DNA of 36,941 nt from Bacillota bacterium. Its GTDB lineage: Bacteria > Bacillota > Bacilli > Alicyclobacillales > SLC66. The notes under the pieces were generated by a model, which saw only the letters and a program-made list of their open reading frames with translations, was not told the DNA's origin and ran no database searches. Each line of letters starts with the position of its first letter. The stretch's first letter is position 1. Where the stretch lies: NCBI GenBank assembly GCA_026627345.1, contig JAPNUP010000090.1, positions 1-36,941 of the forward strand, written 5' to 3'. Made by a program: the position numbers and the translations under genes. Shown here one piece after another: positions 142 through 2,933 of the stretch.

Positions 142-1689
142 TTAGTTCGCAGCTGGCAAACCCTCCTGTAAAAGTAGCCGGTGTGCGCGAACAGCCTGAT
201 TACAAGCAGACATGTAAGCGCGCGATACTGCCATGATGACGTCGCGATCAATACCGACACCACGGTAGGACACACCGTCCACACTGACCATAACGGCTGC
301 TTCCCCGTTGGCGGTTTCACCACTTGCAATCGAGTGTAGTTCCAAATCCACAAAAACGACATCCAACGGGATGGCTTGCTTAATGCAGTGGATAATCGCT
401 TCGACCGGTCCTTCACCGTTGCCTGAGTACGACGACGCCTCGCCGGTTTCATTGTCAACGATCGTCACCGACGCCACACGAGTCATCTGGTTGCTTGTAA
501 CTACCTGGATATCTTTGAGTGAATATGGATCAATGACCACATCGATCGTGTCACCCACCAGCGAAATGAGTTGATCATCCGAAACCCGTTTGCTCGCATC
601 CGCCAATTCCTTGAAACTGATAAACAGATTATCGAGCTGCTTGTCTGTCAAAGCGACGCCAAACTCACCCACGCGTTTTTTCAATGCGTGCCGTCCCGAG
701 TGTTTGCCAAGCACAATCATGCTACGTGGAATACCGAGAGCCTCAGGATCCATGATCTCGTACGTACTGCGATTTTTCAGTAGACCGTCTTGATGAATGC
801 CAGCTTCGTGGGCAAATGCATTGCGCCCGACAATCGCCTTGTTGTACGCGATCGGAAAATTCATCATACGGCTGACAAGGCGCGAGGTCGCGTAAATCTC
901 TTCACGTCGAATCCCCGTCACCACGCCGAGCGTTTCACCACGTGTGGCAATCGCCATCGTCAGTTCTTCTAGCGAGCAATTGCCCGCTCGTTCGCCAATG
1001 CCGTTAATGGTCGCTTCGATGTGGGTCGCACCGCCGCGAATCGCGGCCATACTGTTGGCCACCGCGAGACCGAGATCGTTGTGACAGTGTGCGCTATATT
1101 CGACCGTCTCGCCCTGGCGTGCCTGTGTGCGCACCATGCGAAACAGTCGTTCGTACTCGTCAGGCAGTGCGTATCCTACAGTGTCTGGAAGATTGATAAT
1201 CGTCGCACCCGCCGCGATGACCGCCTCCACCATCTCGATCAGAAACTCATCGCCTGTACGCGTGGCATCCATCGGTGAAAATTCGATGCGGTCGACAAAC
1301 TGCCGGGCGTATGACACCATGTCGCGAGCCATTCCCAGTACCTCTTCCCGACCTTTTTTCAACTGAAAGTCCAAGTGAATCTGCGAGGACGAGATAAACA
1401 AGTGCAGGCGACGCCGCTGTGCACTCTGTGTGGCTGCCAAGGCAGCATCAATGTCGCCGCGCAATGCCCGCGCAAAACCGCAAATTTCCACACCGGTCAC
1501 GGTTCGTGAAATCTCCTCCACGGCAGCAAAGTCGCCCGGACTAGAAGCAGGGAATCCAGGCTCGATCACGTCGACGCCGAGCTTTTGCAGTTGCTTCGCG
1601 ACGCGGATCTTCTCGTGTGGGAACAACGATGCGCCAGGTGACTGTTCTCCGTCACGCAGTGTGGTATCAAAAATGGTAATGTGTTTCAT
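142..1689 (-). CDS. leuA: 2-isopropylmalate synthase
   Basis: LeuA condenses acetyl-CoA with 2-oxoisovalerate to 2-isopropylmalate, the first committed step of leucine synthesis in the cytoplasm. The start at 1689 gives 515 residues, the usual length of the long bacterial form, and follows AAAGGAG. Near the N-terminus is the DTTLRDGEQSPG motif of the DRE-TIM aldolase barrel. Further in are the metal-binding HCHNDLGLA segment and the NGIGERAGNCSLEE motif. The last 120 or so residues form the leucine-sensing LeuA dimer domain. The open frame continues upstream to 1965, but that part overlaps the T-box antiterminator and terminator, so it is not coding. Expression is very likely controlled by leucine tRNA charging through the T-box. 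I do not see leuB, leuC or leuD beside it. Confidence 0.96.
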   Translation of the reverse strand: MKHITIFDTTLRDGEQSPGASLFPHEKIRVAKQLQKLGVDVIEPGFPASSPGDFAAVEEISRTVTGVEICGFARALRGDIDAALAATQSAQRRRLHLFISSSQIHLDFQLKKGREEVLGMARDMVSYARQFVDRIEFSPMDATRTGDEFLIEMVEAVIAAGATIINLPDTVGYALPDEYERLFRMVRTQARQGETVEYSAHCHNDLGLAVANSMAAIRGGATHIEATINGIGERAGNCSLEELTMAIATRGETLGVVTGIRREEIYATSRLVSRMMNFPIAYNKAIVGRNAFAHEAGIHQDGLLKNRSTYEIMDPEALGIPRSMIVLGKHSGRHALKKRVGEFGVALTDKQLDNLFISFKELADASKRVSDDQLISLVGDTIDVVIDPYSLKDIQVVTSNQMTRVASVTIVDNETGEASSYSGNGEGPVEAIIHCIKQAIPLDVVFVDLELHSIASGETANGEAAVMVSVDGVSYRGVGIDRDVIMAVSRAYMSACNQAVRAHRLLLQEGLPAAN

Positions 1690-2045: not shown

Positions 2046-2114
2046 CTTCCGTTCGTTGCGTTGTCGACTATGATAACGACATTTTCGAAATTGTAACACT
2101 ACTCAAACTCATCG

Positions 2115-2507
2115 TCAATACTTTCCACTGGCACCCGTGAATTCGGGTTCTTCTACCTGCGCTCGCCCTTCGTGATGAACGGCCACATCCACACGACCGC
2201 CAAACACTTGTGCCATCGCCTGCGCGACCGACAACACCAACGATTGCACAGACCCATCCTCTGGCGCGCAAGCGCATACGAATAGGCGGTGCTGAAGTGG
2301 CCAGTAGACGACCTCCAAAACATCAGGAAACGGCTCCTGGCGCATGCGATAACGAATCGAGTCAGGCAGTGATGCCAGTGTCGTCGTTTCAAACACACTG
2401 AGACCAAACTGTTCAATCACTTCTTCGATGCGAGCCCGCACAGCGAGCAGTGGGCAACCTGCCTCTTCTCGCAATACTTTGGCATCGGATATTTCATAGG
2501 TCAACAC
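2115..2507 (-). CDS. Unknown 130-residue protein downstream of a ydaO-type riboswitch
   Basis: I do not recognise this protein. It starts with GTG at 2507; a weak GGGATGAGA element lies upstream. It is a soluble protein of mixed composition with no signal peptide or membrane segment. The N-terminal half is acidic and helix-rich (residues about 8-35), the middle contains FPDVLEVVYWPLQHRLFVC, which looks like two beta strands, and the C-terminus is charged. It has cysteines near residues 18 and 78-80. It sits alone between the bshB2 operon and the leuA T-box. A leader of about 400 nt precedes it, containing a c-di-AMP-type riboswitch with no other gene in between, so its level should follow c-di-AMP. 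That would suggest a role in potassium, osmotic or cell-wall homeostasis, which is inference only. Confidence 0.72.
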   Translation of the reverse strand: MLTYEISDAKVLREEAGCPLLAVRARIEEVIEQFGLSVFETTTLASLPDSIRYRMRQEPFPDVLEVVYWPLQHRLFVCACAPEDGSVQSLVLSVAQAMAQVFGGRVDVAVHHEGRAQVEEPEFTGASGKY

Positions 2508-2533
2508 GATGTTCTCATCCCATTTCCCGACTT

Positions 2534-2570
2534 AGACCTGACCTCGCAAACTTGCGTATTCCGCAGGTCT
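2534..2570 (-). promoter_or_regulatory. Nested inverted repeats just before the riboswitch-controlled gene
   Basis: AGACCTG at 2534-2540 pairs with CAGGTCT at 2564-2570, and an inner CGCAA/TTGCG pair lies inside. The structure ends about 27 nt before the GTG start at 2507, with no T-run after it. It could be the expression platform of the riboswitch, perhaps acting on translation, but no alternative pairing was worked out. Confidence 0.35.
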
Positions 2571-2582
2571 CAAGGTTATGAT

Positions 2583-2603
2583 CACTCACACCTTATGTGA
2601 GTG
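2583..2603. repeat. 8-bp perfect inverted repeat in the leader
   Basis: CACTCACA at 2583-2590 and TGTGAGTG at 2596-2603 are separated by 5 nt. This is a stable hairpin in the leader between the riboswitch and the downstream gene. No T-run follows on either strand. It may belong to the expression platform or be a protein-binding palindrome. Confidence 0.5.
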
Positions 2604-2717
2604 TCCGTCAAACGATCATCAGCAGGGATACTTCGGGAGAAAGCTGAGGAATACGTGCGCTTGGTCAAACCACGACCATCTGTGAGGAAAGATCGAATCA
2701 GCGCGTCGTACCTACAC

Positions 2718-2868
2718 TTTCAACGCTTGCGAAGTTAGCTGACGGATTCGGGTGGAATGCTCACCCTACTTCGCGCCGTGGCGCGAAGATTCACCCCAGT
2801 TATCTTGGGTCCCCCGCTTCTTGAATGCGGCCCGCATACAAGCGGCCGGCAGCAAAAGAATTCAGCGT
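2718..2868 (-). promoter_or_regulatory. ydaO/yuaA-type (cyclic di-AMP) riboswitch aptamer
   Basis: On the minus strand the region carries in order the conserved segments of the ydaO aptamer: GCGGGGGACCCA near 2816, GGGGTGAATC near 2797-2788, a variable CTTCGCGC hairpin (2769-2789), GTAGGG, and CCGAATCCGTCAGCTAAC followed by TTCGCAAGCGTT (2751-2720). The family binds c-di-AMP and usually turns off potassium uptake, osmolyte or cell-wall genes when c-di-AMP is high. Here the only gene downstream is the unknown protein ending at 2115. The aptamer assignment rests on conserved primary sequence. I did not fold it. Confidence 0.88.
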
Positions 2869-2924
2869 GACGAACGAACCAAAAATAAATCTCTACCCCA
2901 CACCACCTCTCGTTGACTACCACC

Positions 2925-2933
2925 ATGATACCA
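2925..2933 (-). promoter_or_regulatory. Extended -10 promoter for the riboswitch leader
   Basis: On the minus strand TGGTATCAT (2933-2925) matches the extended -10 form TGnTATnnT, with no convincing -35. It would start transcription near 2918, about 50 nt before the riboswitch, leaving room for the whole aptamer. The bshB2 operon lies upstream without an obvious terminator, so read-through is also possible. Confidence 0.45.

Follow-up and report, generated by a model that had tools for sequence, protein, structure and literature searches.

Which gene does the c-di-AMP aptamer of this locus control, and does its product add a new member to the c-di-AMP regulon? The window, that is, the whole 36,941-nt stretch of DNA that was analysed, contained two RNA elements above the curated Rfam thresholds, a T-box and a c-di-AMP (ydaO/yuaA) aptamer (Table 1). 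The initial annotation had claimed a clear ydaO-type aptamer, and the covariance search upheld it with a significant match over the full length of the model. The coordinates and the description of the 130-residue gene ending at 2115 were also right, and the aptamer lies 5' of this gene on the same strand. The leader between them is long as proposed, but it measures 202 nt, counted from the last position of the Rfam match up to the GTG, rather than about 210 nt. We suggest, with a probability of about 0.72, that the aptamer belongs to a functional c-di-AMP riboswitch, placed in the 5' leader of a transcript with a single gene, which encodes a small cytosolic alpha/beta protein. Judged from sequence, a known riboswitch class appears to stand before a new, conserved and lineage-restricted target.

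Table 1. Features of the locus, with positions in the window.
Feature	Position	Strand	Remarks
leuA, 2-isopropylmalate synthase	142-1689	-	Pfam HMGL-like, HCS_D2, LeuA_dimer
T-box leader	2065-1814	-	RF00230, 94.5 bits
Promoter-like site of leuA T-box transcript	2090-2118	-	TTGACG-17-TACAAT with TG; overlaps stop codon of small gene
130-codon gene, GTG start	2507-2115	-	52% identical orthologue; no family-library match
Conserved ribosome-binding block	2514-2528	-	GGGAAAUGGGAUGAG; GGGAAA(U/C)GGG-UGAG common with orthologue
202-nt leader, aptamer to start codon	2508-2709	-	Without intrinsic terminator or internal sigma-70-like promoter
c-di-AMP (ydaO/yuaA) aptamer, RF00379 match	2842-2710	-	78.1 bits (gathering cut-off 38 bits), E 1.1e-16; model positions 1-134
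Aptamer with P1 re-drawn	2868-2723	-	P1 2868-2864/2727-2723; P2 2817-2812/2734-2729; pairs checked in both species
Enlarged peripheral hairpin	2860-2818	-	UUCUU 2860-2856 with AAGAA 2822-2818, and inner CGGCCGC/GCGGGCCG pairing
Extended -10 promoter element	2925-2930	-	TGG-TATCAT, no clear -35; read from sequence

A search among 60 relatives found an orthologue of the small gene in one genome of the same genus, on contig JAPNUJ010000020.1 of the Bacillota MAG CF.Solf.bin.4, which represents a sister species. Its product is also 130 aa long. Over the first 110 codons, dN between the two genes was 0.34 and dS about 1.9, giving a dN/dS of about 0.2, and 61 of the 125 changes fell on third codon positions. 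Because of this orthologue and the low dN/dS, the 130-codon gene can be taken as real and under purifying selection. In the sister species the gene likewise follows an RF00379 aptamer (82.1 bits), with 201 nt to its GTG, and both species have the gene order yojF, bshB2, aptamer, gene, T-box, leuA, the T-box of the sister locus being identified by eye since Rfam gave no match in the stretch examined. The two aptamers are 81% identical, while the DNA upstream of them aligns no better than shuffled sequence, and therefore selection has maintained the aptamer. As the aptamer-gene pair occurs also in the sister species, the protein is a credible, lineage-restricted new c-di-AMP target. The proposal that it is a candidate member of the regulon thus finds support at the genomic level from the covariance score, the signature of purifying selection and the conserved pair.

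The Rfam drawing of the window aptamer has two non-standard pairs in P1. A better P1 is available, in which ACGCU pairs with AGCGU, followed by GAA and then by a long hairpin. With P1 re-drawn by hand in this way, the aptamer seems to extend further 5' than the Rfam match, to about 2868-2723. In the sister locus, model positions 11-14 (P1) landed on the corresponding ACGCUGAAUUC element, and the P1 element placed there by Rfam is CACGCUGAAUUC, as in the re-drawn window P1. Because of this agreement with the orthologous locus, we consider P1 and P2 of the window aptamer to be intact and its peripheral hairpin to be enlarged, to about 43 nt compared with 19 nt in the orthologue and about 12 nt in the Rfam consensus. 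Formation of both stems is possible, by ACGCU/AGCGU and GCGGGG/CUUCGC in the window; P2 of the orthologue is GCGGAG/CUUCGC.

We also weighed leuA as the main target of the aptamer. Read-through into the T-box would then subject leuA jointly to c-di-AMP and uncharged tRNA-Leu, and the small gene would be incidental. In both species all of the parts share one strand and one order, and no terminator was found between the small gene and the T-box, which would favour such an arrangement. However, a good promoter-like site, which fits the T-box transcript, overlaps the stop codon of the small gene. The sister species has TTGACG-17-TATGAT with TG at the corresponding place, where the overlap with the stop codon is kept. 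Because this extended -10 site occurs in both species, leuA is most likely on its own transcript. The purifying selection on the small gene itself also speaks against an incidental role, and we regard leuA as an unlikely main target.

We return to the small gene as the probable regulated one and to its leader. The start of its transcript is probably marked by the extended -10 element, which has a counterpart in the orthologue (TGA-TATGAT at 1059-1064 of its locus) and lies about 85 nt before the start of the Rfam match in both species. A consensus promoter scan missed this site because it requires a -35. An intrinsic terminator and an internal sigma-70-like promoter were sought in the leaders of both species and neither was found. 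In the same two genomes, the leaders of an MreB-like gene, a dehydrogenase gene and a gene for another unrecognised protein of about 161 aa have a terminator hairpin and a U-rich tract. The leader of the small gene is long and poorly conserved, and little besides the ribosome-binding block is common to the two species. In both leaders the C-rich middle complements this G-rich block, which folding prediction placed mostly in pairs with the leader. When P1 and P2 were forced, the predicted accessibility of the ribosome site fell slightly, from 0.40 to 0.33 in the window and from 0.24 to 0.19 in the orthologue. Because the leader is without an intrinsic terminator and the block is predicted to be paired, we tentatively favour translational masking of the ribosome-binding site or factor-dependent termination as the expression platform, with masking as our best guess.

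The missing terminator could also mean that the aptamer is a relic or has become uncoupled, so that it may bind c-di-AMP but has no platform, and expression of the gene is fixed. This would agree with the lack of a clear switch in the leader, considering the hairpin and U-tract of other long-leader members in the same genomes. The 81% conservation of the aptamer and the kept spacing to the start codon, despite the diverged flanking DNA, make such a loss of function improbable in our judgement. That the aptamer makes a free-standing regulatory RNA ending in the leader, with the gene using another promoter, would suit the long and poorly conserved leader but is hardly credible, as neither an intrinsic terminator nor a promoter-like site was found in the leader of either species.

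In the favoured reading of a riboswitch-controlled small gene, transcription would start from the extended -10 promoter. At high c-di-AMP, as under high K+ or turgor, the aptamer would close and less of the 130-aa protein would be made, perhaps because the C-rich middle of the leader masks the ribosome-binding block, or possibly through a factor-dependent terminator; at low c-di-AMP the protein would be made. We assume this OFF response by analogy with the usual direction of the class. With c-di-AMP leaders of both kinds in one genome, those that bear a terminator and this one, which has no intrinsic terminator, the locus would be useful for asking how such leaders act.

What the protein does is a matter of more tentative suggestion. 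The initial annotation held that it resembles none of the known c-di-AMP targets, and no family match was obtained with Pfam, NCBIfam, PHROGs or PADLOC. A sequence search of the PDB with a five-row profile yielded only a repeat-protein artefact and chance matches, and weak single-sequence matches to an HD/RelA-like protein were dismissed as chance. AlphaFold models of both orthologues, resting on two sequences and with a low-confidence tail after residue 111, had a two-layer alpha/beta fold (pLDDT 74 and 76, pTM 0.69 and 0.72). With the orthologue model, the best five PDB matches in Foldseek were AdoMet decarboxylases or the decarboxylase-like domain of spermine synthase (probability 1.00, E 1.2-1.8e-3); with the window model, this fold took four of the first five places (probability 0.97-0.99, E 0.014-0.023). 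VIA-align gave the orthologue model a Z of 9.7 with spermine synthase, 8.1-8.5 with bacterial SpeD and 8.4 with DUF302, and tied the AdoMet decarboxylase fold with DUF302 and KA1 domains. The Pfam AdoMet_dc profile (PF02675) had no match at E up to 1. Homology to SpeD was not sustained in hhalign, where 36 of 60 column-shuffled controls scored as high as the real comparison. We take the AdoMet decarboxylase fold as a lead only.

In SpeD of T. maritima, the self-processing serine and catalytic residues are S63, H68 and C83 (PMC10407285). When W-P pairs were aligned by eye, an uncertain alignment, S63 was replaced by D, C or G and H68 by V, L or T in five homologues, so the pyruvoyl-forming serine and the histidine seem to be absent from them. 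The own genome of the window also has a true speD. The protein might be a non-catalytic, prozyme-like partner of SpeD with the AdoMet decarboxylase fold, made at low c-di-AMP. We hold this specific role to be highly doubtful; if true, polyamine synthesis would be coupled to K+/c-di-AMP signalling, a connection of which we found no description. In more general terms, a non-enzymatic role is probable, in which the protein acts as a partner that adjusts osmolyte, polyamine or envelope metabolism.

The aptamer-gene pair occurred only in the two species and was absent from the other 16 of the 18 genomes of the family that were searched; none of the family's other riboswitches in these 18 genomes precedes the 130-aa protein. 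In the other genera of the family, yojF-bshB2 was kept, but no aptamer, small gene or leuA adjoined it. A search with a two-row profile picked up clear relatives in two other families of the class: in a single genome of one of them (E 1.7e-15) and in a genus of the other (E 1e-4, falling to about 1e-46 after inclusion in the profile). The three distant homologues, which belong to these two other families, had no aptamer within 1.5 kb on either side. The check proposed in the initial annotation, whether homologues too follow a ydaO element, thus came out positive for the orthologue and negative for the distant ones. No further homologues were found in about 400 genomes across the phylum, nor did tblastn of a distant homologue match plasmids. 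By these searches, the protein family is small and patchy, with its c-di-AMP link confined to one genus so far, and the general impact of the finding is limited because this spread is narrow.

The own genome has two diadenylate cyclase genes and seven RF00379 elements including that of the window. Three of them start 3-7 nt before genes for secreted wall hydrolases (LysM/Hydrolase_2, PG_binding_1/NlpC and SH3/NlpC), and the others stand before an MreB-like gene, a short-chain dehydrogenase gene, and an unrecognised gene followed by a creatininase-superfamily gene. Among the targets named in published summaries are transporters of K+ and amino acids as well as genes for wall remodelling and osmotic functions (PMC7266159).

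Several other arrangements were noted. In many genomes of the family a c-di-AMP aptamer precedes the gene for the unrecognised protein of about 161 aa. At most of these places a creatininase-superfamily gene comes next, and the leaders that were checked have a clear terminator hairpin. Within the family this gene has a far wider spread than that of the window, and as an orphan c-di-AMP target its product may be the better candidate. Both species of the genus have an aptamer before an MreB/Mbl-like gene, and the gene after it shows a weak YceG-like match. An aptamer also stands before the gene for a radical SAM protein similar to lysine 2,3-aminomutase, a possible source of beta-lysine, which is an osmolyte precursor. 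Another lies before a gene like dapB (dihydrodipicolinate reductase), a step in the synthesis of lysine and cell-wall precursors.

Compared with known proteins, the 130-aa protein shares its predicted alpha/beta topology and size with SpeD of class 1b and its catalytically dead relatives, the N-terminal domain of spermine synthase and the trypanosome prozyme, and by eye a W-P pair ends the corresponding strand. It differs from SpeD of class 1b in that its profile similarity does not exceed that of shuffled controls and no serine occupies the S63 position. DUF302 proteins (1q9u and 1j3m) are similar to the predicted models, with a VIA-align Z of 7.8-8.4 and an rmsd of 2.7-3.1 for 91-94 residues, but they fell outside the Foldseek top 50 and there was no Pfam DUF302 match. 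The RNA element departs from its class in the enlarged peripheral hairpin, in the 202-nt leader without intrinsic terminator, and in a target family absent from the family libraries and from the available literature, which does not cover the founding surveys of ydaO targets. In its full-length covariance match, its core loop sequences and its P1/P2 pairing, it resembles the other members of RF00379.
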